A program made the translations under genes and the position numbers. From the NCBI GenBank assembly GCA_016191145.1, contig JACPPD010000004.1, forward strand, positions 124,001 to 188,000: 64,000 nucleotides of DNA. The letters are read 5' to 3'. Shown in pieces: positions 14,685 through 34,207 of the stretch; position 1 is the first letter of the stretch, and each line of letters starts with the position of its first letter. This stretch comes from Ignavibacteria bacterium (GTDB lineage Bacteria > Bacteroidota > Ignavibacteria > Kapaibacteriales > Kapaibacteriaceae). The notes under the pieces are model-generated. The model was not told the DNA's origin. It made no database searches and saw only the letters and a program-made list of their open reading frames with translations.

Positions 14685-16619
14685 CTACCACATCTTGGAT
14701 ATAGTAAGCCGAAAGAGATTTTCCCTGTAACCCTCTCCTAATAGGGCTGGAGTGTACCGTGCTGTAAAATAGTTTCGCTCAGCACGAAGATCTATATCAG
14801 CTATGTTTTCTATACGCGCCAAATAGCTGATGAAAAATCCTGTACGCGTTCCATAGGTTTGGTCGAAGGCAAGGTTGAGTCCCGCATTGAGCGTCATAGC
14901 CTCCGTAAACGAATAACCCGCCGAACCGTCGGTGGTGAAAATCGATGTGCCGGGAGTTTGCGCACTTGTCTGCTGTATGTATCCTAAACCAACTGAGAAG
15001 TTGAAAGGAATTTGGAAAGTAAAACTTTGCGTTCCCGTCACCGAAAGAACGGAGTAATCGTACAAATTGTTCTTGGTTTCAGCGTCCTGTTTAGATACCG
15101 TAATGTTTGAATTCGACATGATCTTACCAATTCGATAACCATATCCGCTTGATACAGACCACAGCACCGTGCGATTTATATACTGCAGCAGCGTATCGGT
15201 TGCATTGCTTTCCTGAACGTAGGGGGCATACGATACTCGCAGATATGGCCACCCGCGAATTGAAAGCCCAAAATTCGCACCGGCGCTGAATAACGTCGAG
15301 GTTGCCCGCTTTACCGGGATCAGATTATCCCTGTCCTGGCGTACGAAAGCCCCAACGGAAAACTGTCGCTTAAAAAAGAATTGATCGATGCGCCCATCGT
15401 ACCTAAGGTAATCGGTTCTGAGATTAGGAACGCCAAGTGCACGGTAGCCTGCACCAATGCGACGCAGCTTACCCGTCAGCTTTGTATTTGTGCTGCGAAT
15501 GTTAACGGTTGTGGCTGCCGTGAGCGCCCAGTCCGCATAGGTAGATGCCGATGAATCAACCAGGTTGAGCAGAAACTTGGGAACATCCTCGCTGCCGAAT
15601 GTAGGCGCGTTTTGATCGGCTACGGTTATCGAACCTGCCAACTCGGCTTCCAACGTCCACACATTTTTAATCGGTTCGAGCTTGAAGTCGAAACTCGACA
15701 GATAATTTTTTTGTGGCGTGAGCGCAACTCCGCTATCGGGTAAAACCAGAGTGTTTTTATCATCGACGATATATATCCCCGTGATGAGAATGTGAGAGCC
15801 ACCCGGACTTCCCGAACCAATGCGAGCCCCATACATGCTTCGTCCAAAATTTGAGTTGTTATACGTTGTGTACATCGATGTGTCTACTCGAAATGTATCG
15901 ATGCGGGTAAGCGGACGCTGTGTGGTGCCGTATACCGCTGATAAATAAAATGATTGTCCCGGATTCCACTCAACCCAAGCCCCTTCCAATCGCGCCCCGC
16001 TGAGAGTGATCGGTGAGAAGACGGGGAACACTGCGCCGACGGCGATTTTGGGAAGTTGCGACATCACTTTTTCCACGTCCGTCATCAGCCCCATCGAGTT
16101 CAGCACATCTGTATAGTCCCTGATGTTTCCATTTGCTACATCGCGCATCTCCTGGAGCTTACACATCTCCTGCAGTTCGTTGAACTTGGCCGAATCCACT
16201 TTTGCGAGCGAATCGAGAGCTGTCTGACAATCGTTCAGCATCCAGCCAATTTCAGATTTTGCGTATTCCGACAACGCACTGTACGCGCGCTGAACAACCA
16301 CTCTTTTGATGGCGTCGGGGTCGAGCATTAATGAGAAGGCATTTATGTTTTGTCGAATACCTTGCTGCTCAGACGACATCAGCAGGTTCGCTGTTATTGG
16401 GATACCGTAAATAATAAGTGTGGGATTAACCTCGACACGCCAGAGGTCTGCGGGTTTCTCCTGAAACGTCCCCTGTCTGTCGGACGTTTGTCCAATCATC
16501 CGATAATTGCCTGTAACAACAACTGGCGACGCCTGCTGCGATCCGAACGTCAGCCATTGGGCATTGCTAACGAACGATATTATGAAAATAGTTACAAGTA
16601 AGCTTGCAGCTCGTTTCAC
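14685..16619 (-). CDS. Probable outer-membrane beta-barrel protein, unknown function
   Basis: A 644-aa exported protein with a signal peptide (LLVTIFIISFVSNAQ). A helical, Asp/Lys-rich insert at about 115-165 contains several cysteines (NDCQ, EMCKLQ). From about 185 on, most of the chain consists of alternating polar/hydrophobic segments rich in Tyr, Gly, Ser and Thr, ending with FRLTISKMW; a terminal aromatic residue is typical of outer-membrane barrels. No named family is recognised. Its start overlaps the stop of the RCC1-repeat gene by 4 bases, so the two are translated together and may work together at the cell surface. Confidence 0.7.
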   Translation of the reverse strand: MKRAASLLVTIFIISFVSNAQWLTFGSQQASPVVVTGNYRMIGQTSDRQGTFQEKPADLWRVEVNPTLIIYGIPITANLLMSSEQQGIRQNINAFSLMLDPDAIKRVVVQRAYSALSEYAKSEIGWMLNDCQTALDSLAKVDSAKFNELQEMCKLQEMRDVANGNIRDYTDVLNSMGLMTDVEKVMSQLPKIAVGAVFPVFSPITLSGARLEGAWVEWNPGQSFYLSAVYGTTQRPLTRIDTFRVDTSMYTTYNNSNFGRSMYGARIGSGSPGGSHILITGIYIVDDKNTLVLPDSGVALTPQKNYLSSFDFKLEPIKNVWTLEAELAGSITVADQNAPTFGSEDVPKFLLNLVDSSASTYADWALTAATTVNIRSTNTKLTGKLRRIGAGYRALGVPNLRTDYLRYDGRIDQFFFKRQFSVGAFVRQDRDNLIPVKRATSTLFSAGANFGLSIRGWPYLRVSYAPYVQESNATDTLLQYINRTVLWSVSSGYGYRIGKIMSNSNITVSKQDAETKNNLYDYSVLSVTGTQSFTFQIPFNFSVGLGYIQQTSAQTPGTSIFTTDGSAGYSFTEAMTLNAGLNLAFDQTYGTRTGFFISYLARIENIADIDLRAERNYFTARYTPALLGEGYRENLFRLTISKMW

Positions 16620-19420
16620 GGCGATGCCAGGCGCTCCACGCGTAATGGTCCAAGAGGCGGATCTAAGGGCACAGGGATTAGGTTAGTAACGGGGCCTTCG
16701 CCGAGCTGACCATAATCGTTTGTGCCCCACGTCCACAGTCCACCGTCGGCACGCACTGCCATTGCATGCGCACCGCCGGCCACTATCCCCTGAACCGCAT
16801 CGAGTCTGATAATCTGAACAGGTTCGTATTTGCCGACTCTTGTGCCATCACCCAACTGGCCGAGTACATTATTACCCCATCCCCATACAACTCCATTAGA
16901 ATCCAAAGCCAGGGAGAAACTCGAGCCTGCAGCTATGGCTCTAATTCCACCGATGGTCTTTACCTGCGCAGGAGTGGCTCTATCCTTAACTGTTCCATCT
17001 CCTAATTGTCCGCTGGCATTTCCGCCCCATGCCCACACCTTTCCATCGCGCGAGAGTGCGAGCGAATGATCGAACCCGGCAGCAACTGCAATCACATTTC
17101 TTGCAGCGCTGCCAAGTGTAAACGACTTAGGCGATGTGGTAAATGGCTCATCGAGCGACTGTCCGGTTTGACCATGACCGTTAACACCAAACGAAACAAT
17201 GTTTCCGCCGACAGTTAGCACCAGGCTGTGGGCTTCTCCTGCGGCAACGGCACGGCCACTCTTAACAATCATGTGCGGCGTTGGAGCCTTAAAGAAAACA
17301 GTTGAATCGATTTGTCCTGTAGAAGCGTTGGTATAAACCGGCGTCGATCCGCCGCAACCATAAAACCGATTCCAACCCCATACAAAGAGCGTTCCCGTTT
17401 TAGTAACACCCAACGAATGAAATGCGCCCGTTGCCACCTGTGTGACCCCCGATATTCCATTCACCGTGGTTGGCGTTCCCTTATCTGACCTATCGTTAGT
17501 TCCAAGCTCTGCCCATTCATTCAGGCCCCATGCCTTTAAGGCACCATCCTTGCCCACTGCAAACGAATGCCACGGCCCTGCAGCAAGCGCCTGCACCTCG
17601 GTTACATTTTTCACCTTCGCAGGTTCCTTCACAATACCGGGAAGGGACGGACCAACGCTGTAATCTGCATTATCACCCCACCCCCAAACGATGTTCTTCT
17701 GAGCAAGCGACGCCAACAATAGCATTGATTGAATATTCGATACTTCGGATGTTGTCTGCGCAAGCGAAATATCAGGTAGCGGCTGCTCGTTCTCCGGCGC
17801 AACATTTCCTTGTATTCTCGTCGACCCCTGCAGCAAAGAGGCATACATGCCCTTCAATTTTGGCGACGTCTCGTTAACAACGTTTACATCTGCAAGCTTC
17901 AAACTGCCCGCCTTCAGGTCTGAGGCATTTGACTTGAACTTATCCTGTAGGAATTTTGTCGGCTTCTCATCGGGCGTAGCTACCAGTGAATGATTTTCCC
18001 CGGCTGCCATTACCAAGACGGGAAATTTTACACTATCGAGTTTTTCTTTATCATAAAAACGAAAATAATCAATGTTAACATGTGCTTTCTCAGAACTGTC
18101 GCGCACCAGTATACGTGCCGCTCTGTTCAGATACTTCAATACGTCCCAATCCACTGGAGCAAGGCGTTCACTTGCGCCAGCCCCGTTGCGGACGCTGGTT
18201 GAATTAGCAACCCACCAGGATTTGGCCGTTCCAGGTAGCTCTCGCGTGAGAAGTTTGAAGGTGTCTTTGGGATTTTTCTCAATGAGAAGTTCAACACCCG
18301 TGCCTTCGTCGTTATATCCGCCGAACAAAAAACCTACAACTGAGTTCTGAATGTGAAATTCCTGCGAAAGCATAGCCCCCCTGGCAATATCTGCGTCGAG
18401 AGGTCCAAACGACGACACCCAATACTTTCCGTTTTGTCCAACGTTACCTATCACGGGATGGGCACTATTTATCGGGTCGTCATCAAACGCAGGACCAGTA
18501 ACTTCCCAGCATGCAAGAGAGCCGATTTCAAAATCCCAGTTTTCTCCCGGGCAGTCAGCCGACGGTGTTACTATGGCTGTTGACCCCGTTGTTCGGACTG
18601 TTTCCGGTTCCTCTGCCTTCAAAGGCAAATACTTGAACACCCATACTTCGCTTTCGCCAAGAGGAACTAATGTTGTGCCGCGCTCCTCATAAGCTTCAAT
18701 CATCCATGCATAACGCTGTCCTTCGACAAATGTGCGTGTTGAAACAGGGTACTGAAAGATTGTTCGTGTAAGGCTTCTCACGTCGAGCCACGCAGGATTA
18801 CGCTGCATTGCATCCTGCGGAGTTTGCGTTCCAAAAATTTCTGCCATCCGCAGATGATATTTGATAATAAGACCCGGCGCCGGAGGAACGGAATTCATCC
18901 ATGTTAACACCGGATAGCGCTCCACAATTTCGCTTTCATCAGGAGGTGCTATTAGTATTGGAACCGACATGCGGTTAACGACAACAAACTTGCAGTCGCG
19001 TCCAACAACTGCCTGTGTTTCAACTTCAACAGCTTCGCAGCAGATCTGATACTCTCCAGTGGGAACATTTCCAGTTCTTAACAAAGCATCTCGGTATCTG
19101 TCGTTCGATTCATCTACGGTAACAGGCTGAACCGTAGACCCCGTTACAACCATCACTCCAGGCGGAAGATCGAATTCTTTAGAACGTGCGTCGGCGATAA
19201 TACCGTCTGGAACCGACATTTCTTCCGCAGTTCCATGCAGATAAATTCTAATCGTTCTTCCCGACCTGTTGTTGAGTTCAATCTTCCACAAGTCTGCGAT
19301 ACGCAGTTGATTTGGAGGGGGCTGGCTTAGACGCACATCAACCACTACGGGCTGTGCGAACAGTAACGACGGGGATGTAACCCCGCAAATGACGATAGCA
19401 AATAAAAAAAATCTATTCAC
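16616..19420 (-). CDS. Secreted RCC1-repeat (beta-propeller) protein
   Basis: A 934-aa exported protein starting at a GTG, with signal peptide FFLFAIVICGVTSPSLLFAQ. The N-terminal 300 residues look beta-rich, with a fibronectin-like part around PILIAPPDESEIVERYPVLTW. A central part (about 300-450) resembles a carbohydrate-binding jelly roll (WDFEIGSLACWEVTG). The C-terminal third has about six to seven RCC1-type repeats, each with a core such as VWGWGDNAD, LKAWGLNEWAELG, VWAWGGNASGQLGDG, VWGWGNNVLGQLGDG and LWTWGTNDYGQLGEG. This predicts a propeller used for protein-protein contact. It is co-translated with the barrel gene and divergent from the giant genes. Confidence 0.88.
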   Translation of the reverse strand: MNRFFLFAIVICGVTSPSLLFAQPVVVDVRLSQPPPNQLRIADLWKIELNNRSGRTIRIYLHGTAEEMSVPDGIIADARSKEFDLPPGVMVVTGSTVQPVTVDESNDRYRDALLRTGNVPTGEYQICCEAVEVETQAVVGRDCKFVVVNRMSVPILIAPPDESEIVERYPVLTWMNSVPPAPGLIIKYHLRMAEIFGTQTPQDAMQRNPAWLDVRSLTRTIFQYPVSTRTFVEGQRYAWMIEAYEERGTTLVPLGESEVWVFKYLPLKAEEPETVRTTGSTAIVTPSADCPGENWDFEIGSLACWEVTGPAFDDDPINSAHPVIGNVGQNGKYWVSSFGPLDADIARGAMLSQEFHIQNSVVGFLFGGYNDEGTGVELLIEKNPKDTFKLLTRELPGTAKSWWVANSTSVRNGAGASERLAPVDWDVLKYLNRAARILVRDSSEKAHVNIDYFRFYDKEKLDSVKFPVLVMAAGENHSLVATPDEKPTKFLQDKFKSNASDLKAGSLKLADVNVVNETSPKLKGMYASLLQGSTRIQGNVAPENEQPLPDISLAQTTSEVSNIQSMLLLASLAQKNIVWGWGDNADYSVGPSLPGIVKEPAKVKNVTEVQALAAGPWHSFAVGKDGALKAWGLNEWAELGTNDRSDKGTPTTVNGISGVTQVATGAFHSLGVTKTGTLFVWGWNRFYGCGGSTPVYTNASTGQIDSTVFFKAPTPHMIVKSGRAVAAGEAHSLVLTVGGNIVSFGVNGHGQTGQSLDEPFTTSPKSFTLGSAARNVIAVAAGFDHSLALSRDGKVWAWGGNASGQLGDGTVKDRATPAQVKTIGGIRAIAAGSSFSLALDSNGVVWGWGNNVLGQLGDGTRVGKYEPVQIIRLDAVQGIVAGGAHAMAVRADGGLWTWGTNDYGQLGEGPVTNLIPVPLDPPLGPLRVERLASP

Positions 19421-19529: not shown

Positions 19530-22500
19530 ATGCGACGGGCTTTATCCGTGTCCGCACTAAAGCGTGCACGCATTCCTCGTGTTTCTTCAACAGCCGCTTC
19601 ACCGGCTGATATAGCATCGCAGCCCGAGGGATACATTCTGTCTCGGCGTCAGGCTCTTACGCTGGCCGGCGCACTTACGCTTACTTCGGCACCAATTGCG
19701 TCGGCAATTGAGTCAGCGCTAAACTCAACGTTTTCCGTATCAAAGCGGGGCGGCCGCATTGTATTCCTTGTTGCAGGCATTCCCCGCTGGGTAATCGATC
19801 CTTCGATGTTTGATGGTTCGCCCACGTTGGAGTTTGTTCAAGACGATGATGGAATACGGTTATCGCTGCGAGGCGCTTTCTACCCAGGTACGAATATTCC
19901 AGCCGATATCGTCGCAGTTATCGGACGTGGGATACGCCCCGTGCTGCGGCTAACCATCACGAAGCTTAACGCAACCTTCAGCACACCATTTATTCAGTGG
20001 CTGCTGGAGCGTGAGAATGCGTTTGCTGATTGCAGAACTAGTGCGAATTGGTCTGCCGGCGATGCTAATATTATTTGTCAAATAATTGAATGCTCATTAT
20101 TACCATCGTGGACACTATCTCTTAACTGCGTTTCGGAAGCGCATTTGCCCGACGTATTGGCCGCCCTTCCATCAGGCAATGTTCACGTCAAGCTGCTTAC
20201 GGAGAATGATTCAACGTTGTTGGTGCCTGCTGCCAGGAAGCGCACACTTGTAAAAATCGAGCGTGGTTCAAACGCCTGGAACGTGCCACTGCGTGCTGCC
20301 AACTCTGCGGCATGGCGCGTTACGGCAACAGACAAGGCATTCAACACATGCTCTGTTGAAACCTCTGGCGACGCAAGGACATGCCTCCTATTCGAAGCGA
20401 CCGAAGGAGTAAGCATTAAACTTGAGAAATACGATGCCGTAATTGGTCTGCGCGAAGTGCGATACGCTCTTGCACGCAATAAACAGGGTCTGCACGAAGC
20501 TCTGGTAGCACGTTATTCCCCTCAGCCCACATGGATGATTGTAGACGGTGTGAGCCTTGAACTTGGCGACAGGGCTGGTGTAGCGCCCTTCGAAATGGAA
20601 CGCCGTAATGGCACTGTGGTTCGCTGCATTGCTGCTCCGGCGCTGCTTCGGTATGCCATACCAGTGGATGGCGCCATCACAGAACCTTCGCGGACACATC
20701 CACGGACGCAAATCGCGCTGATTCCGCCAGACGTGAGCATAAATGCCCTGCCGAAGCATCATATTTATCTGGCATCCTTACAGCTTGATTTTAGTAAGTC
20801 GATGCAGATTTCGTCGCAAGGAGTTGTTGCGGGACAGTCAGAGACAAAATCAAATTTTAAGCTAAAGCAGAGTCCGTTTATTCTAACGAAGTTTAAGTTT
20901 TTGTCGCCGGGTAATCCAAAGGTTAATGTAATCCGTCCCGACGATCTCATGGTTCTCACGTTTGAATTCGACGGAATTACCATCAACAAAAGCGGCGGGA
21001 CGTTTAGTGCGGGAGGCAATGGCAGACTCATCGTCCATTTCCAGCCTCAGCACATTGCCGAGCGCGCGTTCTTCTATGTGAACGATCCCGATAAGCCACC
21101 GAGCACCACCGATGCACCCGCAAGTTCAGGGAAATCCAACAGCTCGACTGAACCGCGGCTTGAGCCGCCGATCGATGCTGTGCTGTCGCATCCGTCGAGG
21201 CTGGTGTTCAGCGTTCCATCGGGATATACAGGACAATACAGCTCGGAAGGATTGCTTGATTGGTCGAAATTCACGTTGAAGGTATCGCCAAGCGCCAAGC
21301 CGCCCGATCCGAAATTTGCGTTCGGTGCGCTTGGGTCTTCGTTTATAACGAAATTTAGCGGTAGCTCTTTGGGACTTAAGAACTCAAAACCTACCTTCAA
21401 GTCAAAATCCGCATTCAAGACGTCTGTTGGTGCAGTCTTTGCTTTAAATCCGGGCATCGTCTCCAGAATTTCTCAAGGCGAAAAGGCGCAGGTCAATCAG
21501 TACGAAGGCAACGCCGACTTTGCAGCAGCTTTGCCACAATCGGTAGTGAGCACTTACCTGGCTGCTCTCGAGGCTAATCCTCCCATTCGTGTACCTCTCG
21601 ACGATGAAACTGCGATAGAATATCCCTATCGCCTAATTCTCTCACCGAATAAATACGCTGCATGGGCTCATAGCATATCGGCGAAGCGCGATGAAAACGG
21701 AAGGTCTGAATTGTGGCATTCACGTTTGGGAGTGAAACACTCAGATGGGAGTGTAGACGAAAACGCAGCATACTTCAGAACGATGCGTGCAATATGGAGT
21801 CCGGACGTCGGCACTAACTACAACATGTCGGCAAAGTTTAAGGAACGTCCCTTCCGCACATCGATTAATCGCCGCGACCGCCACGAAATCGTTCAGCTTA
21901 CAAGCAACTACGGAATGGCTAAGACCGACGATGCTCCAATTGAAGTAAAGCGGTTTATGCTCACATCGTTGGGTGCGTGGGCCGACATGGTAGGAGTCTG
22001 GGATCCCGACGGTGTTGATCAGCTCGATGTTGAACAATGGATTCAGCGCGGCACACAGGGTCGAGATCACTTTGTACGCGTCTGCTACAAGGGCTATCTG
22101 TTTCCTTTTGGCAACCGGGCAACACTTGTTAAAGAAACTGAACGAAAGTTTCGGCGAACTCCCCGTGGCGACATGGCTGCCTATCTGATGCAGCGCATGT
22201 ACATCATCCTGCGGGAGCCTGTTCGGGAATTTCCGGCAGCCGGGCTTGCAGGGATGCAATACCAGGGGCGTGAGTTTCCTTTCCGCAGAATAACGATTAC
22301 AACTAAGGCAACGCCCAACCTGCGCCTGCCTTCGATGACGCAGCTATCGGGTCTCTCGAGCAATTCCTTCTGGCCGCAGTTTGAACTTGACGGAAATGGT
22401 CACGACGTTATGTGGTCGTGCATTGGACGCGACTGGGACAACAAAGATCACAACTACTCTACTCCCCTTGCCTTTATTGCCAACAGCGATGCCACCGACC

Positions 22501-24641
22501 CGGCAAATCCAAACCTTGGTCCATGGATTGCAAATCAGTACGAACCTGAAAACAAAGAAGTAGTGCGGAAAAAGATTCCGATGAACGGGCAGAAGATTGC
22601 CTTCGCGCCATCTATAAAGATGGGCGACACATCGCTTCCTACAGGAACATTCGTCGTTAGCGGTTATCACGCTCCTAATGCAGTGGGAAGCACTCCGAGG
22701 TTCTTCCCAAAGATGTTCAAGTCGTCCGTTGCTATCGAGAAGGTGAACGAACTGCTTGGCACTAACTCTGAGCAGGACATCTCCTACTTTATTAAATATC
22801 TTGAGTGGGCATTTGAGAAAGGGCCCGATACTGCTAAAGGTGCAGAGATAAATCCGGCAAACATCAAGAACCCGTCGCAGATTTTTGCACGGCTGCTCAA
22901 TACTGTTGGGATGAACTTCAACGCTCAGTCGGACAAAGCGGGCGGCCTCGCAGCCCCGTCGATTAACATCGGCGGCCTTTCACGTCTGCTCGGACCAATC
23001 CCCGGAGACTTCAAACCAGAGAAGCTTGCCGAAATGGCATTGGCCGCAGGCAACTTCGACCCAATGCAGTACTTCGAGGATATTCTCAACAGTAAGATTC
23101 TAGGCGATATCACGCTCAAGGATGTGCTCGACTTTGTGATGGGCATCATGAACAACATGGACAAGATGCCCGGTCTTGATAAAAAAGATGACTTTGGTGT
23201 GTCTGATAGCATTAAGGGAGCTGTGTCGAAATCTGATATTGCCCAGGCAATGCAGGATATCATCGACAAAAACGATATCATCAAAGCTGCTGCTCAAAAA
23301 GTAGACAGCATAGCGAGTGCAGACTCAGACATCAAGGACGCTAAAGATAAACTCGAGGCAATGGTAAACGACGTTAAGTCGGAGATGCAACAAGCCAAGA
23401 ACGACATCACGTCCGAAGTTGCCAATGCCAAGAAAATGCTCGACAACCAGCTCAAGGAATGGAAGAAAAAGGTTGATGACAAGGTCAACGAATTAAAGAG
23501 CGAAGTTGATAAGGTAATAGGCCCGCTCAAAGAAGCTGGCAACGAAGCCTACAAGAAATACGAAGAAGTTACAGGCGCCCTCGAAGCTCTGAAGAAGGGT
23601 GTTCAACTTGTTTACGAATGGCAAACGGAAATCAAGAGTTCTCCCGGCAACATCCTTGTTCCTAAATATCCCGGAACCGGGGACAAGAGCAAAAAGGCAA
23701 TACTTTACCTGAAGGCTGAATTCAAGAAGAAGCTCAATCTCGATCCACCCGAAGTCCTTCTGTATGGTTCTATCAGCAACTTTATCGTCAATCTCATCGG
23801 CGACGGAGCCGCTCAGTTTCTCATCATCAAATTCAACCGCATTGCCATATCGGCAAAGGTAGGAGAAAAGCCGAGTATCGATCCGGATCTCGAAAGTGTC
23901 GAATTTGCAGGCCCCCTTACATTTGTAAATAAACTTAAGGATCTCATCCCTAGTGGAGGAGGCGCGGGAGGCGTAGGTTTCTCTTTCGACTTCAACGTAC
24001 TGCCCACTGGCATTACTGCATCACTAACCATTACGCTACCCAACGTTACCGTCGGCGTATTCTCCCTGATGAATATGTCGTTCCTGATGAGAGTAACAGT
24101 TCCTTTCGATGGAAGGCCATTCTCCGCCTACTTCGCCTTTTGTACACGGGAGAATCCGTTCCGAATTACCGTGATGATATTCGGCGGTGGCGGGTTCTTT
24201 GGCATCGAGATCACTCCCAAGGGAGTGCGCATGCTGGAGGCAGCATTCGAATTCGGCGGGAACTTTGCGTTCGACGTAGGCGTGGCTTCTGGCGGCGCCA
24301 GCGTGATGGCTGGCATTTACTACAAGCTGGAAACTAAAGAAGTTGATGGTAAGCAAGTTGAACAATCGCAACTGACGGGATATTTCCGTTTGACCGGCAA
24401 CCTGTCGATTCTCGGATTGATTCGCGTGAGCCTTTTGTTCGAACTCAAACTCACGTGGCAATCGAATGGAAAGGTCTATGGTGTAGCCACCATACAGGTT
24501 GAAATCGAGATACTGTTCATCAGCTTCACTGTAGGCGTTACTGTAGAACGACAGCTCAAGGGCAGCGACAGTGACCCAACCTTTCTCGACCAACTCCCGC
24601 AGGCTTCCATGTGGAAGGATTACTGCAATGCTTTCGCCTGA
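19530..24641 (+). CDS. Giant protein of unknown function (about 1703 aa) with Tat-like signal and coiled coil
   Basis: No function is recognised. Of the possible starts, 19530 is preferred because ATG 19389 lies inside the divergent RCC1 gene; ATG 19470 is also possible. A twin-arginine-like stretch (SRRQALTLAG, residues 38-47, then a hydrophobic run to SAPIASA) suggests Tat export. Numbering from 19530, there is a beta-rich N-terminal third, a Pro/Ser linker near 525, then a conserved-looking core with SELWHSRLGVKH (about 725), TMRAIWSPD (about 749), LTSLGAWADMVGVWDPDG (about 811) and YKGYLFPFGNRATLVKETE (about 850). A Lys/Glu/Asp coiled coil spans about 1256-1370, and a glycine-rich, all-beta C-terminal domain ends VEIEILFISFTVGVTVERQ. 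The next giant gene follows after 18 bases. Confidence 0.8.
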   Translation: MRRALSVSALKRARIPRVSSTAASPADIASQPEGYILSRRQALTLAGALTLTSAPIASAIESALNSTFSVSKRGGRIVFLVAGIPRWVIDPSMFDGSPTLEFVQDDDGIRLSLRGAFYPGTNIPADIVAVIGRGIRPVLRLTITKLNATFSTPFIQWLLERENAFADCRTSANWSAGDANIICQIIECSLLPSWTLSLNCVSEAHLPDVLAALPSGNVHVKLLTENDSTLLVPAARKRTLVKIERGSNAWNVPLRAANSAAWRVTATDKAFNTCSVETSGDARTCLLFEATEGVSIKLEKYDAVIGLREVRYALARNKQGLHEALVARYSPQPTWMIVDGVSLELGDRAGVAPFEMERRNGTVVRCIAAPALLRYAIPVDGAITEPSRTHPRTQIALIPPDVSINALPKHHIYLASLQLDFSKSMQISSQGVVAGQSETKSNFKLKQSPFILTKFKFLSPGNPKVNVIRPDDLMVLTFEFDGITINKSGGTFSAGGNGRLIVHFQPQHIAERAFFYVNDPDKPPSTTDAPASSGKSNSSTEPRLEPPIDAVLSHPSRLVFSVPSGYTGQYSSEGLLDWSKFTLKVSPSAKPPDPKFAFGALGSSFITKFSGSSLGLKNSKPTFKSKSAFKTSVGAVFALNPGIVSRISQGEKAQVNQYEGNADFAAALPQSVVSTYLAALEANPPIRVPLDDETAIEYPYRLILSPNKYAAWAHSISAKRDENGRSELWHSRLGVKHSDGSVDENAAYFRTMRAIWSPDVGTNYNMSAKFKERPFRTSINRRDRHEIVQLTSNYGMAKTDDAPIEVKRFMLTSLGAWADMVGVWDPDGVDQLDVEQWIQRGTQGRDHFVRVCYKGYLFPFGNRATLVKETERKFRRTPRGDMAAYLMQRMYIILREPVREFPAAGLAGMQYQGREFPFRRITITTKATPNLRLPSMTQLSGLSSNSFWPQFELDGNGHDVMWSCIGRDWDNKDHNYSTPLAFIANSDATDPANPNLGPWIANQYEPENKEVVRKKIPMNGQKIAFAPSIKMGDTSLPTGTFVVSGYHAPNAVGSTPRFFPKMFKSSVAIEKVNELLGTNSEQDISYFIKYLEWAFEKGPDTAKGAEINPANIKNPSQIFARLLNTVGMNFNAQSDKAGGLAAPSINIGGLSRLLGPIPGDFKPEKLAEMALAAGNFDPMQYFEDILNSKILGDITLKDVLDFVMGIMNNMDKMPGLDKKDDFGVSDSIKGAVSKSDIAQAMQDIIDKNDIIKAAAQKVDSIASADSDIKDAKDKLEAMVNDVKSEMQQAKNDITSEVANAKKMLDNQLKEWKKKVDDKVNELKSEVDKVIGPLKEAGNEAYKKYEEVTGALEALKKGVQLVYEWQTEIKSSPGNILVPKYPGTGDKSKKAILYLKAEFKKKLNLDPPEVLLYGSISNFIVNLIGDGAAQFLIIKFNRIAISAKVGEKPSIDPDLESVEFAGPLTFVNKLKDLIPSGGGAGGVGFSFDFNVLPTGITASLTITLPNVTVGVFSLMNMSFLMRVTVPFDGRPFSAYFAFCTRENPFRITVMIFGGGGFFGIEITPKGVRMLEAAFEFGGNFAFDVGVASGGASVMAGIYYKLETKEVDGKQVEQSQLTGYFRLTGNLSILGLIRVSLLFELKLTWQSNGKVYGVATIQVEIEILFISFTVGVTVERQLKGSDSDPTFLDQLPQASMWKDYCNAFA

Positions 24642-24659
24642 TTCATTGGAGATTTAATC

Positions 24660-27600
24660 ATGCCGTCACAAGAAATTCAATGGCTGGCTGTCCCCTTCGA
24701 CGTCGAGGAACAGGGCGGTAAAACTATTCTCTCTGTGGCTATCTGCGTACAGCCGCGTCTGCGGGATACGTCCAGCGCCGACAGAGTCTTAAGCGATTAT
24801 CCGGATTGGCTCGATTGGCCATCGACGCTGGGTGGAATATCGGTGTCGCTCAACCTTAACGGTACATCGATTAGTTCTGTACCGACGCCAGGAACCGAAA
24901 TTCCCGACACTGGTAACTGGAAGGCAATTTTTCCTCCAACGACACTTGTTCGGCCTTATGAATACACTCCTTTTACGGATTATCAAATTATTTCATATCC
25001 TGTAAAGAAAGTAAAGTCAACTGTTCATTCGGTTTTCGAAGCTCTTGTAAAAGATTTCGATGGCGCACCTCCTGTTCTTTCTCCTGTTCTTTCTTTCGGC
25101 ATTGATTCGTCGAAACTCAACGCACAGATTCCCCAACTCTTCTCTTCGCTGAAGGATGTAGTTCCGAATGATGACAACGAAAAACAATTACAGTCGATAA
25201 AGAACAGATGGGAGAGCGAAGGGGAAGCGGCGATGATGCTTCGGATTCGTAATGGCGGAGAGATTAAGAAGAATCCTCATCCCATTGAGAAAGGTGAGGT
25301 TCCCGTGCCATCGAATCCGCAGCAGATGATGTATGCCAACCCTTCCATGGAGAGCATGCTGGGAGGACTCGGACTCGTTGATCTGTATCATGCGTCTCGG
25401 ACAGGTCCGGTAAAGAAAATGGTAGGGGGCAAACTTGTGCGCACGGACAGAGCACCGCTGCTGAGACCCAAATTCGATTTCCATCAGGTGGTAAGTGTCC
25501 TGCGCGAATACCCCGCAATGATGCGAAGACTCGGCCTTGTGAGGCATGTTCAATTTGAATTGCCCGGCGGGATGCCTGCCGAAGGAAAAATTCGCTGCAA
25601 CGTTTCATGGCCGACTCCGCAGACAAGTCCCTCTGAAAACATTACACCATGGACTGCCTACAAACTGTACAACACGGGCTCTCCCGATACCTGGCAGTTT
25701 CTGCCTCGTCCGGAAGCCGGATCGGAAATCGTTGGTGCACTCCTGTGTTTGAACGATGCCAGCCATTTTGATGTTATACAAATTGATGTTGACTCATCGG
25801 CAATTAAAACACTCAACTATACCCGAACGCTTGTTCACCGGTATAAGCGAACCGCGAATACGAGTGACGCAGCAATGAAGGCAGATCCTCCAGGCACTCG
25901 CGGAACTGGCCTTCAGCTTGTTCGCCACAATCGCGCACTGAAACTCGCTAAGTCGCTCATCCGCAATGCGCAGAACCATAACAAGCTTGTGAGCAACTCG
26001 GAAGTCACACTGTATGCCGATGATTTGCTGCGCGGGTATCGTATCGACGTATTCGACGCAACTGCCAAAAGTTGGCAGTCGCTGATGCGAAGAAATGCTA
26101 CATATCGTTTCCCCAATGCATCCGAACCGCTGAAGTCAACAGGGTTCACCGTCAGCGACGAAGAAGGTGTTCTGACGATGGGTGCAACACGTCCCGTTGA
26201 TTCGGACGACGTGCCTTCGCAGCGGCAGTTATATGCTCACGAAACTGTTGCGCAGTGGGAAGGCTGGTCGCTCGTTGCTCCTCACATTGGAAACCACATC
26301 GGTACAGACGATGAGTTGGCACCGGAGAAAAAGCAGCAATCGCCTCCGGCAGATTTTGAATATCAGGTATCAACAGAAGTCGGCATCGTCGAAGGATCGC
26401 TACCTCGCCTTCGCTTTGGCAGGAATTACAGACTTAGAGCGCGCTTTGTAGACATTGCCGGGAACGGGCCCAAGCTCGGTGAGTTGAATCCATTAGATTT
26501 TTCGTGTGCAACAGACCTGATAAGGTTCTTGCTGTGGGATCCAATTGTGAGTCCTGCAATTGTATTGCGTAATCATCCCGTCGAGGGTGAATCGCTCGAG
26601 CGGATGGTGATACGCAACTACAACTCCGATGCCGACGAATCGGTTTCCATAGATACGTCGGAGACATCGGAGCGCCACCTCTTTCCACCTCTTGCTTCTG
26701 TGCAACTCTGTGAACGTCATGGCATGTTCGACCAGAACCCCCTGGGTAAGATGAAGGGTGATAGTGGTACGTACAACATGATTGCAGGTAAGCTGAAGGA
26801 CATTCCGTCGAGATGGTATACGCGCAACGATGCGGGCGATCTTGTTCCCGAAGCAACCGACGATACTCCGCCAGCCGATGCGAGCAAAGCAAAAGATGCA
26901 ATACGCTTTGCACTTGTGCAAAGCGGCACAACGGAAGTTCCGTATCTGCCCGACCCCATTGCCCGAGGTATCACGCTCCAGAATGTGCCTGGCCTTACTG
27001 CCGGACAACTCTTTGAGGTCACGCTGTCGGGCGAGAACATGGCAACGATTACATCTGCAGGCGGCGTTGCAACAGTTGCGTTCGACGACGTTAGTCAGTG
27101 GCCGAAGTTAAATAGTATTATGATCAGGCTTGCTGCCGGAAGCGGCGCTCCAACATGGAATAGCGGGACGAAAACGCTCACCATTCTGTTGCCAAAAGGC
27201 GAGCAGGCATGGGTGCAGTTTAGTTCCAGTCTGGGAGCTGATCAGGGTGAAGCCAACGCGAACTTCGACTTGCATGGACACAAGGAAACGCTGCAGAAAT
27301 CTGGTTTTACAGATACAAAACTTGCTGCTGCTGCCAGAGGTCTGTCGTGGCTTATTACTCCAGCCAGAACCATTCATCTTGTTCATGCAACACAAAAACC
27401 GCTGAAGAGACCGAAGGTGATATCGGCCTCTGTGTCGACGCGAAATTTCGGGGCAACAAATGCAGGCATTACTATCGATAATACATACGTCGACGCCAGG
27501 AGCACTCAGAAGGTAGACATGCATGCCGAGTGGTCTATTTGGGAAGACAACTTGAACAAGCCAGCACCCGAGTTATTGGAGCAGCGCGCATTTTTTTACG

Positions 27601-28895
27601 AACAGCATGCCGAAGACCGAACGAACGATAAGCTCGCGAACACAAAAACGCACGAGTTTGGCGATACGAAATATCGCACAGTGACCTACGTTCCGACATC
27701 GACAACGCGTTTTCGCGAATACCTGCCCCTTGCCATCCGAAAGATCGTTGATAATATCACGAGAAAGGGGACGGGTAAGGAGGTAAAAGTTCTAAGCACG
27801 AAGCGGCCAGACAGTGTTAAACTTTTATACATTGTGCCATCGTTCCGCTGGCTTGAAGCGGAGCGGAAGCTTGACGGCGGCATTGTAAAGAGCACAAGAA
27901 AAGGCGGCGGACTTCGCGTATACATGGAACGACCATGGTACTCATCGGGGAACGATGAATTGCTCGGCATCGTTCTTTATTCAGCGGATAAATTCAAACC
28001 AAAACTCATTACTCCCAAGCCCGACAATAAAGGCTTCCAAGGGTACTACAAGGGGCTAACTCCTACAAAAGATTTAACGCAGGGGTTGTCGATGTTTCTT
28101 GGATCATCCAAGCTTGAAATACCAGAGCAGATAAAGCCATACGTGACGGAATGGGGCATGGACCCGATTTGGCTGTCTAAACCCACACCAGCAGACGCGG
28201 CTCCGCAGCCTTCAAATTTCCGCGATCCGGAGGTGATACTCAAAAACGTTTCGCTCGAAGAAACTCCACTCTCGCAGCGCTACGATGTAATTGGTTACAA
28301 GCCGCTGTACGATGCAGGCCGAAAACTGTGGTATTGCGATCTTGAAATAAATCCTGGCGAGTCTTACTACCCGTTTGTCCGTCTTGCCCTGTGCAGACTC
28401 CAACCCAACTCCCTGGCAGACGACCAAACTGGTAAAGATGTTTATTGTTCGCTCATTTCACAGTCGGAGTTTTGTCAACTTGCACCCGACCGCGAAGCAA
28501 CAGTGCGTATTGAGGAAGACCGACAGAGCATAACCATTCAGGTAGTTGGACACACGTACCGCATTAATACTACAGGCCAGTTGGGTAGCGAGATAGAAGC
28601 TACCATTGAAAAGAATGACGGTGGACAAACCGATGTTTCTTGGACGCCAGTGCAATCGCAAAGAATCGACAGGATTCACGCCGCCGGATTATGGGGAGGG
28701 TTGGTAAAGCTACCTTCCAGCGTAGATTCGACAAAGTATAGAGTAGTCATCAAAGAATACGAGCAGTTTTTCTCGGACCCATCCGATCCTAAGGAGCGGG
28801 AGACATCGCTTGGCAATAAATCTGACGGCGGCGGTGAAATCGTGATGGAATTTGACAGACGCATCGTTTACGCCGATGTACTGCCTCTGTATTAA
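24660..28895 (+). CDS. Giant protein of unknown function (1411 aa), partner of the upstream gene
   Basis: No function is recognised. It starts at ATG 24660 with GGAG 9 bases upstream and has no signal peptide or membrane helix. The composition is soluble and beta-rich. Visible landmarks are RLRFGRNYRLRARFVDIAGNG (about 581-601, fibronectin-like), an Ig-like stretch LFEVTLSGENMATITSAGGV (about 782), GGLRVYMERPWYSSGNDELL (about 1082), YVTEWGMDPIWLS (about 1160) and LWYCDLEINPGESYYPFVRL (about 1222). The chain ends in an acidic/aromatic tail. The 18-base gap to the upstream giant gene, the shared size and the shared style suggest that they form a complex. No catalytic motif is seen, so a structural or binding role is more likely than an enzyme. 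Confidence 0.8.
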   Translation: MPSQEIQWLAVPFDVEEQGGKTILSVAICVQPRLRDTSSADRVLSDYPDWLDWPSTLGGISVSLNLNGTSISSVPTPGTEIPDTGNWKAIFPPTTLVRPYEYTPFTDYQIISYPVKKVKSTVHSVFEALVKDFDGAPPVLSPVLSFGIDSSKLNAQIPQLFSSLKDVVPNDDNEKQLQSIKNRWESEGEAAMMLRIRNGGEIKKNPHPIEKGEVPVPSNPQQMMYANPSMESMLGGLGLVDLYHASRTGPVKKMVGGKLVRTDRAPLLRPKFDFHQVVSVLREYPAMMRRLGLVRHVQFELPGGMPAEGKIRCNVSWPTPQTSPSENITPWTAYKLYNTGSPDTWQFLPRPEAGSEIVGALLCLNDASHFDVIQIDVDSSAIKTLNYTRTLVHRYKRTANTSDAAMKADPPGTRGTGLQLVRHNRALKLAKSLIRNAQNHNKLVSNSEVTLYADDLLRGYRIDVFDATAKSWQSLMRRNATYRFPNASEPLKSTGFTVSDEEGVLTMGATRPVDSDDVPSQRQLYAHETVAQWEGWSLVAPHIGNHIGTDDELAPEKKQQSPPADFEYQVSTEVGIVEGSLPRLRFGRNYRLRARFVDIAGNGPKLGELNPLDFSCATDLIRFLLWDPIVSPAIVLRNHPVEGESLERMVIRNYNSDADESVSIDTSETSERHLFPPLASVQLCERHGMFDQNPLGKMKGDSGTYNMIAGKLKDIPSRWYTRNDAGDLVPEATDDTPPADASKAKDAIRFALVQSGTTEVPYLPDPIARGITLQNVPGLTAGQLFEVTLSGENMATITSAGGVATVAFDDVSQWPKLNSIMIRLAAGSGAPTWNSGTKTLTILLPKGEQAWVQFSSSLGADQGEANANFDLHGHKETLQKSGFTDTKLAAAARGLSWLITPARTIHLVHATQKPLKRPKVISASVSTRNFGATNAGITIDNTYVDARSTQKVDMHAEWSIWEDNLNKPAPELLEQRAFFYEQHAEDRTNDKLANTKTHEFGDTKYRTVTYVPTSTTRFREYLPLAIRKIVDNITRKGTGKEVKVLSTKRPDSVKLLYIVPSFRWLEAERKLDGGIVKSTRKGGGLRVYMERPWYSSGNDELLGIVLYSADKFKPKLITPKPDNKGFQGYYKGLTPTKDLTQGLSMFLGSSKLEIPEQIKPYVTEWGMDPIWLSKPTPADAAPQPSNFRDPEVILKNVSLEETPLSQRYDVIGYKPLYDAGRKLWYCDLEINPGESYYPFVRLALCRLQPNSLADDQTGKDVYCSLISQSEFCQLAPDREATVRIEEDRQSITIQVVGHTYRINTTGQLGSEIEATIEKNDGGQTDVSWTPVQSQRIDRIHAAGLWGGLVKLPSSVDSTKYRVVIKEYEQFFSDPSDPKERETSLGNKSDGGGEIVMEFDRRIVYADVLPLY

Positions 28896-32926: not shown

Positions 32927-34207
32927 ATGAAGTTAGTAACCTTAGTTATTGTAGCAGCCTTGCTAGCACCTTGGACGGAACTGGCAGCATCAGATGCAAG
33001 TTTGCGGTTTATCAGAAGCTATGGCGCTGATAATGAACAGTTGCCACCTGTCGTCTTAATTTCTGAAGGGGCTTTGCCAGAAATTTCCGCCAGTGCCTAT
33101 GCAACTGTAGAATTTGATATTCAGTCGCCAGTGATTCCGAATTTGTATGCGAGACTGATCCATTGTTCTGCTGACTGGAACGATGATGGCAATTCGTTCC
33201 TTACCGACATTACAACACGCACAACCATTATTTCCTGGTCTCTTGCACCGCAGGCGTCAACTTATTACTCCTATCGCGGAAAAATCCGCATTCCCAATCC
33301 GCAGATTGCAATTCGATTCAGTGGCAATTGGAAGGTAAAAGTGTTCGACATGGACACAGATGAACTTCTGGGAGAAACCAGGATATTCGCAGTTGATTAT
33401 AAGGCTCGAACTGATTTTAATTTCATGACGGATTTCTATGAGCCTACGGCACGCGTTAGCAGCATTGCTCTTACGCTCGAAGCCGTGGTGTCATCGGAAA
33501 GCTCCAGACTGATGGACCCATTTTTACACACGGTTACGTTTTACCGCAATCACCGCTGGGGAGAACCATTCATTGTGTCTACAAAGTACCTCGATCAGGT
33601 AACACCCTATGGCACATCCGGATCGATTGCAGGTATTTATCCCGCAGGCAAGGTTTTCCGCATCTCGCGTATTCCTGCACAAAATGAATACCGAGTTCTC
33701 GACATGACCAATCTCGGGTTGTTTCCATACACAGGGAAACCCGTTAGGCTGCCCCTTTCCGACCTTCGCAGAAATGGTTCGTTCTTTGAACAAGCCAACG
33801 ATGGCGCAATGATTACAGCGATGGTGCAGCCTTTAGACGATATTTACGTGCCCGTTGAATTCTTGCTCGATCCTCAGCCAGGATCGCCTTCTGTGAACGA
33901 TGTGTTCATTGCAGGATCGTTTAACAACTGGACGCTTGACCGTTCGTGGATGATGTCTTACGACGAAAAATTGCGCCTGTACCGCCTTCGGCAATGGGTT
34001 CGAAGGGGCAGACACAACTATCTCTATGCCACTGGCTCGTTAAATATCGACGACGGCACAATACACGATATTTCGTTTGAGGAATTTGAGGGCAACACTG
34101 CTTCCAACACCAATAGCTACATTGCATTCGTTTACTATCGGGTGCTGGATTATGGCGGGTACGACGCAATTATTTCTGTCGCTGCGTCGAATATTTACAA
34201 GAGATGA
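32927..34207 (+). CDS. Type IX secretion plug-domain protein (DUF5103)
   Basis: A 426-aa exported protein with signal peptide VTLVIVAALLAPWTELAAS. The body matches the DUF5103 family, renamed for the plug that closes the SprA translocon in Flavobacterium. Landmarks are FDIQSPVIPNLYARLIHCSADWN (about 64-86), a YSYRGKIRIPNPQIAIRFSGNW segment, TDFYEPTARVSSI and FRISRIPAQNEYRV. The last 120 residues include an E-set/glycogen-binding-like segment, DVFIAGSFNNWTLDRS. It supports a type IX secretion system in this organism, in line with the sorting-domain proteins at 37879-39976. It lies 12 bases before ruvB. Confidence 0.83.
   Translation: MKLVTLVIVAALLAPWTELAASDASLRFIRSYGADNEQLPPVVLISEGALPEISASAYATVEFDIQSPVIPNLYARLIHCSADWNDDGNSFLTDITTRTTIISWSLAPQASTYYSYRGKIRIPNPQIAIRFSGNWKVKVFDMDTDELLGETRIFAVDYKARTDFNFMTDFYEPTARVSSIALTLEAVVSSESSRLMDPFLHTVTFYRNHRWGEPFIVSTKYLDQVTPYGTSGSIAGIYPAGKVFRISRIPAQNEYRVLDMTNLGLFPYTGKPVRLPLSDLRRNGSFFEQANDGAMITAMVQPLDDIYVPVEFLLDPQPGSPSVNDVFIAGSFNNWTLDRSWMMSYDEKLRLYRLRQWVRRGRHNYLYATGSLNIDDGTIHDISFEEFEGNTASNTNSYIAFVYYRVLDYGGYDAIISVAASNIYKR

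Follow-up and report, generated by a model that had tools for sequence, protein, structure and literature searches.

A pair of adjacent giant genes in an Ignavibacteria genome: a candidate two-subunit complex exported by the twin-arginine pathway

In hitchhiker complexes of the twin-arginine translocation (Tat) pathway, a subunit bearing the export signal takes an adjoining signal-less partner with it and the complex is exported pre-assembled. PaoABC is a known ternary complex of this type (PMC4273604), while FdnGH, at 142 kDa, is among the largest known Tat substrates (PMC13186574, a review of 2026). These are the closest described counterparts of the locus presented here: two adjacent giant genes, called A and B, in a stretch of 64,000 nucleotides (the window) from Ignavibacteria bacterium (contig JACPPD010000004.1, positions 124,001 to 188,000). 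As in the hitchhiker complexes, a signal-bearing subunit (A) is encoded beside a signal-less partner (B), the pairing is conserved, and the route proposed for A-B is co-export of a pre-assembled complex. A and B differ in having no recognised cofactor or redox family and no detected sequence relation to these complexes, and in their size: 187 and 157 kDa (186.6 and 156.8 kDa, together 343 kDa) compared with 142 kDa.

Two other groups of proteins provide points of comparison. The TANFOR-domain proteins of Bacteroidetes have been described as a class of polymorphic toxins in genomes that encode a type IX secretion system (T9SS), and the toxin itself can sit in a neighbouring gene (PMC7073777); they share features with the product of a neighbouring gene, C. 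Proteins with tandem fibronectin III (FnIII) or immunoglobulin (Ig)-like domains may resemble the predicted fold of the C-terminal part of B (residues 912-1411). Genes C and D are the divergent neighbours of the pair (Table 1).

We propose, at roughly even odds (a probability of about 0.5), that A and B form a single large complex of two subunits, which would act outside the cytoplasm after export by the Tat pathway with B as a hitchhiker. This proposal is drawn from sequence analysis of the window and of homologous loci.

Table 1. Features of the A-B locus; positions are those of the window
Feature	Position	Strand	Description
Gene A	19530..24641	+	1703 amino acids (aa), 187 kDa; open reading frame (ORF), homologues in several phyla, dN/dS 0.058
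Predicted twin-arginine signal region of A	19530..19706	+	Residues 1-59; motif in 25 homologues; arginines invariant in alignment A2
Conserved block LWHSRLGV of A	21711..21734	+	Invariant or nearly invariant columns
Conserved block YKGYLFPFG of A	22086..22112	+	Invariant or nearly invariant columns
Coiled-coil region of A	23229..23660	+	Generic coiled-coil profile matches; long helices in a low-confidence AF2 model
Gly-rich beta-strand C-terminal domain of A	23724..24638	+	Highly conserved; long strands in a low-confidence model
Gene B	24660..28895	+	1411 aa, 157 kDa; ORF, homologues, hydropathy
C-terminal third of B	27393..28892	+	Residues 912-1411; probable tandem FnIII/Ig-like beta-sandwich domains
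B block YMERPWYSSG	27921-27950	+	Within the C-terminal third
B block TEWGMDPIW	28146-28172	+	Within the C-terminal third
Gene C	16616..19420	-	Secreted protein, 934 aa, Sec-type signal, divergent from A
TANFOR-like N-terminal region of C	18611-19420	-	About 270 aa, homologous to part of larger TANFOR-like-domain proteins
C-terminal RCC1 propeller of C	about 16646-17653	-	RCC1-like Pfam match, E 6e-78
Gene D	14685..16619	-	644 aa, Sec-type signal, probable outer-membrane beta-barrel ending ...TISKMW

The A-B pair and its distribution

The genome carrying the window measures 2.47 Mb. Both frames, and the gap of 18 bp that separates them on a common strand, are as described in the first-pass annotation of the window. 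Gene A starts with the ATG at 19530 and its relatives start at the equivalent position. A start at 19389 would give a longer open frame (1750 aa), but one that overlaps with the divergent gene C; the homologues favour 19530. Relative to the nearest relative (G001, 92-94% protein identity), the ratio of nonsynonymous to synonymous substitution rates (dN/dS) is 0.058 for A and 0.081 for B. These low values indicate that both are real, constrained proteins under purifying selection.

Protein A is composed of a lineage-specific N-terminal domain of about 460 residues, a universal core running from the IRPDDLM (RPDDL) motif onward, a coiled coil and a Gly-rich beta C-terminal domain; its homologues reach 3311 aa in Alphaproteobacteria. 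When Pfam, NCBIfam, PHROGs, PADLOC and PDB sequences were searched with each protein singly and with profiles, B had no meaningful match and A had generic coiled-coil matches alone (at about residues 1240-1377). No recognised enzyme domain was found in either protein. This bears out their initial description as giant proteins without a known function, and in the plasmid records seen they are annotated simply as 'hypothetical protein'. A role as a defence system was considered and rejected, the PADLOC search having yielded coiled-coil noise only. Scans for promoters and terminators gave no more than in shuffled sequence, and a search for DNA repeats in the region gave nothing past short, poorly matching pairs.

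Among 40 related genomes (Bacteroidota records named Kapaibacterium and Ignavibacteria), A and B are each present in the same 17 and are adjacent, with A first, in every one of these (Fisher p 1e-11; the 40 relatives are not independent of one another). The pair was found in the same arrangement in 10 more genomes, belonging to other Bacteroidota families and to records named Acidobacteriota, Proteobacteria, Armatimonadetes and Chlorobiota (the names given to metagenome-bin records cannot always be trusted), and also on 12 plasmids and one contig from a viral collection. The plasmid hosts include Rhizobium, Sinorhizobium, Agrobacterium vitis, Ruegeria, Cupriavidus metallidurans CH34, Diaphorobacter and Streptomyces. 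The gap between the two genes lies between -40 and 42 bp in 21 of the 24 pairs measured. Moreover, the evolutionary distances of A and B are closely correlated (r = 0.96), a value reached by none of 2000 permutations.

The earlier suggestion that A and B are partners is therefore strongly supported by their presence in the same genomes, their fixed order and their co-divergence. The first-pass annotation had proposed looking for the two genes as neighbours across phyla, and the same order was indeed found in distant genomes and on plasmids; homologues without their partner are few, and neither protein gave a confident match to a known family. We regard the functional pairing of A and B as close to certain. 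They are a family pair without a name, which spans several phyla and moves on plasmids. Its spread is wide but thin: the pair occurs in 12 of 296 genomes sampled over the phylum and, among 189 genomes sampled around the Chersky record (its phylum), in the Chersky genome itself and no other. This looks like the distribution of a mobile accessory system.

Remnants of the pair were found on plasmids of Paraburkholderia and of Rhizobium Pop5. The Paraburkholderia sabiae plasmid carries fragments of A only (L076:14052-17014 and 27199-28074), about 10 kb from a gene annotated as belonging to the cytolethal distending toxin subunit B family. In Agrobacterium vitis CG957, B is split into two overlapping frames (L074:20646-26184), which are followed by dpdE/dpdF genes. 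On the viral-collection (IMG/VR) contig, a terminase large subunit gene (L096:236-1819, minus strand) adjoins the pair (L096:4541-12338). A and B may be prophage cargo in this case, or the contig may represent a host-virus border.

The twin-arginine signal and the proposed export route

The Tat-like signal initially reported for the first protein is present as LSRRQALTLAGALTLTSAPIASA, with SRRQAL at residues 38-43 and AxA near residue 59 (the cleavage site was judged by eye). Both of its arginines are invariant in alignment A2. In 25 A homologues, the motif [STN]RRx[FLVIAM] leads into a weakly hydrophobic stretch whose first 16 residues hold no more than one charge, and AxA often follows. For example, the motif reads ITRRDFLG, ISRRTFLG or LTRRTFV in Alphaproteobacterial plasmid copies and VSRRLFLR in one Streptomyces copy. 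A short LNLSVLK-type motif precedes the Tat signal in other A homologues; the homologues of family f28 (L050:12346-16749, L052:8275-12762 and L053:12262-16614) keep a similar N-terminal motif but lack the twin arginines.

In a tree of the A core (midpoint rooted and with several long branches), about three changes are enough to account for the Tat signal. Homologues that carry the signal stand on either side of the deepest split, and it is thus probably ancestral and was lost several times. Hydropathy analysis of B and its homologues shows neither an N-terminal signal nor a consistent membrane helix, in agreement with the earlier statement that B has no membrane helix. Judged from these sequences, A is likely to be exported by the Tat pathway, and we slightly favour the view that B hitchhikes on it.

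A bears the twin-arginine signal, and B, which has none, is encoded by the next and usually very close gene. In the proposed mechanism, the two proteins would fold and assemble together in the cytoplasm, and the signal of A would then direct this assembly through the Tat translocon, B travelling as a hitchhiker. Once exported, the particle, built of beta domains, may serve for binding or as a structural element in the periplasm or on the cell surface, a role suggested by the fibronectin-like C-terminus of B together with the absence of a recognised enzyme domain. In the Kapaibacteriales it would be deployed with D, a probable outer-membrane barrel, and C, a TANFOR-like/RCC1 secreted protein; to judge from the gene neighbourhood, these would carry the particle through the outer membrane or anchor it there. 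The surface role is the more tentative part of this scheme. A surface or envelope assembly had been suggested at first pass, and in the Bacteroidota the Tat signal, the probable outer-membrane barrel and the TANFOR-like secreted protein fit this suggestion; the several A lineages that have no export signal do not.

A number of observations weigh against this scheme. About ten of some 36 A homologues have no Tat motif (one Bacteroidota family, the Cupriavidus/Diaphorobacter/Rhizobium group, two Streptomyces, one Acidobacterium and one viral-collection contig), and most of these also lack the N-terminal domain and start at the universal core. C and D, which would serve export or anchoring at the outer membrane, were not found with A-B outside the Bacteroidota relatives nor in family f28. 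In favour of Tat export, the window's genome encodes TatC and, in tandem, TatA-type genes; since TatC occurs in every one of the 26 genomes tested, whether or not they hold A-B, its presence does not discriminate use of the Tat pathway. Also in favour is a TatA-family gene (55 aa, L072:19424-19591) that lies 49 bp after B, in the same direction, on plasmid pC of S. meliloti LMB1, but this is a single case, no other TatA having been found on the 13 plasmids searched, and a dedicated tatA was therefore rejected as a general feature of A-B. The size of the pair, 343 kDa and far above the 142 kDa of FdnGH, is a further reason for doubt. Finally, two related genomes contain a second, divergent copy of A with no neighbouring B (G317 and G322; L060:9589-14652 and L062:2503-7587), and two metagenome assemblies contain a B fragment without a detectable A.

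The homologues that start at the RPDDL core without any signal raise the question of whether A-B might instead be cytoplasmic, the RR motif being part of an N-terminal add-on and the core working inside the cell in all lineages. The location of some Alphaproteobacterial copies near restriction or DNA-modification genes would suit such a role. However, the Tat-type signal has been kept across Bacteroidota, Alphaproteobacteria and one Streptomyces, over divergences to about 20% identity, one A-B locus has its own tatA, and the pair is associated with a secreted protein (C) and a probable outer-membrane barrel (D). We consider a purely cytoplasmic role unlikely.

Neighbouring genes, domains and structure models

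A homologue of C neighbours A-B in Bacteroidota loci, and strong homologues of D are present in 17 of 17 genomes with A-B compared with 2 of 23 others. The order of the four genes varies (A-B-C-D, A-B-D-C, A-B towards C-D, or divergent), which argues for a functional A-B-C-D set in this lineage. One D homologue gave a weak Porin_4 match (E 0.014). Relatives of both D and C seem common in the order. For example, in one genome an outer-membrane-barrel-like gene is followed by a gene for a 1511-aa TANFOR-matching protein (L019:18219-24347), apart from the A-B-C locus of the same genome.

The likeness of C to the TANFOR-domain proteins (TIGR02542; PMC7073777) concerns its N-terminal region and its Sec-type signal, together with the presence of a T9SS-related gene in the window (32927-34207), whose product has a type IX secretion plug first domain (PF17116, E 2e-9). 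At least one larger homologue of the N-terminal region of C matches TIGR02542. Such matches were obtained for 3 of 11 C homologues, the best with E 8e-7 and 29 bits against a curated cut-off of 67 bits, and the C protein of the window gave none. C also differs in ending in an RCC1 propeller and not in a known toxin domain, and no immunity gene was found. No match to the T9SS C-terminal sorting domain (PF18962 or relatives) was obtained with A, B or C. We have not classified C as a TANFOR polymorphic toxin because the TANFOR model does not match it, no toxin domain is recognised and there is no immunity neighbour.

Nevertheless, A and B could provide the payload, or its means of delivery, in a secreted system of antagonism, TANFOR-linked and similar to polymorphic toxins, with C and D as its export or surface module in the Bacteroidota. 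The distant relationship of C to a class described as polymorphic toxins (PMC7073777), the T9SS plug domain gene in the window and the sporadic, often plasmid-borne spread of A-B over phyla, as is often the case for conflict systems, are all consistent with this. Yet A, B, C and the neighbours scanned showed no recognisable toxin domain or immunity gene. In addition, within the lineage A and B are conserved over their whole length and evolve under purifying selection, unlike variable toxin tips, and the loci examined outside the Bacteroidota have neither C nor D. An antagonistic function of this kind appears improbable.

The sequence blocks singled out at first pass as conserved cores, LWHxRL and YKGYLFPFG for A and RPWxSSG and WGxDPIW for B, do coincide with alignment columns that are conserved or invariant. 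The long coiled coil described in A agrees with the many generic coiled-coil matches around residues 1237-1377. Its all-beta Gly-rich C-terminal domain is consistent with the secondary structure of an AlphaFold2 (AF2) model of the last 1200 residues, which was built from an alignment of few sequences and is of low confidence (predicted local distance difference test, pLDDT, 35). The AF2 model of B (residues 240-1411) has a mean pLDDT of 46.7 and is usable in its last third, where pLDDT is about 50-80 in most of the region. Compared with tandem FnIII domains, this last third gave a VIA-align Z of about 8, at the edge of significance for a model of modest confidence and with no similarity at the sequence level. 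Such a C-terminus would lend weak support to a binding or scaffold role. FnIII domains are common to countless unrelated proteins. A viral fold search with the B model gave nothing convincing, its FnIII-like part showing a weak likeness to tail proteins.

An extracellular contractile, phage-tail-like or Tc-type particle is very improbable: although A and B are large and beta-rich, the viral-collection contig carries them beside a terminase gene and the FnIII-like part of B has the weak fold similarity just mentioned (to a domain type found in countless unrelated proteins), no gene for a sheath, baseplate, tube or RHS protein could be recognised among the window genes scanned or in the neighbourhoods of relatives (the lack of a nearby sheath or baseplate gene had already been remarked on), PHROG matches are confined to the coiled coil of A, and no record in the phage collection encodes B.

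Implications for Tat export and for Bacteroidota envelope modules

For the Bacteroidota, the preferred reading, a Tat-exported complex of A and B, makes the pair a candidate partner for the poorly understood TANFOR-like/outer-membrane modules of this group. If A and B are exported in folded form by the Tat pathway, they would also provide a natural test of the size of particle that this pathway can accept and of whether dedicated TatA copies widen it. A bolder and rather doubtful extension is that A-B represents a class of giant machines not recognised before, each of two subunits, which would pass through the Tat pathway already assembled and, in one case, would have a TatA of its own. If this were true, the Tat cargo would be about 340 kDa here and more than 500 kDa in Alphaproteobacteria (estimated from length), and current ideas about the size limit for Tat substrates would be overturned.

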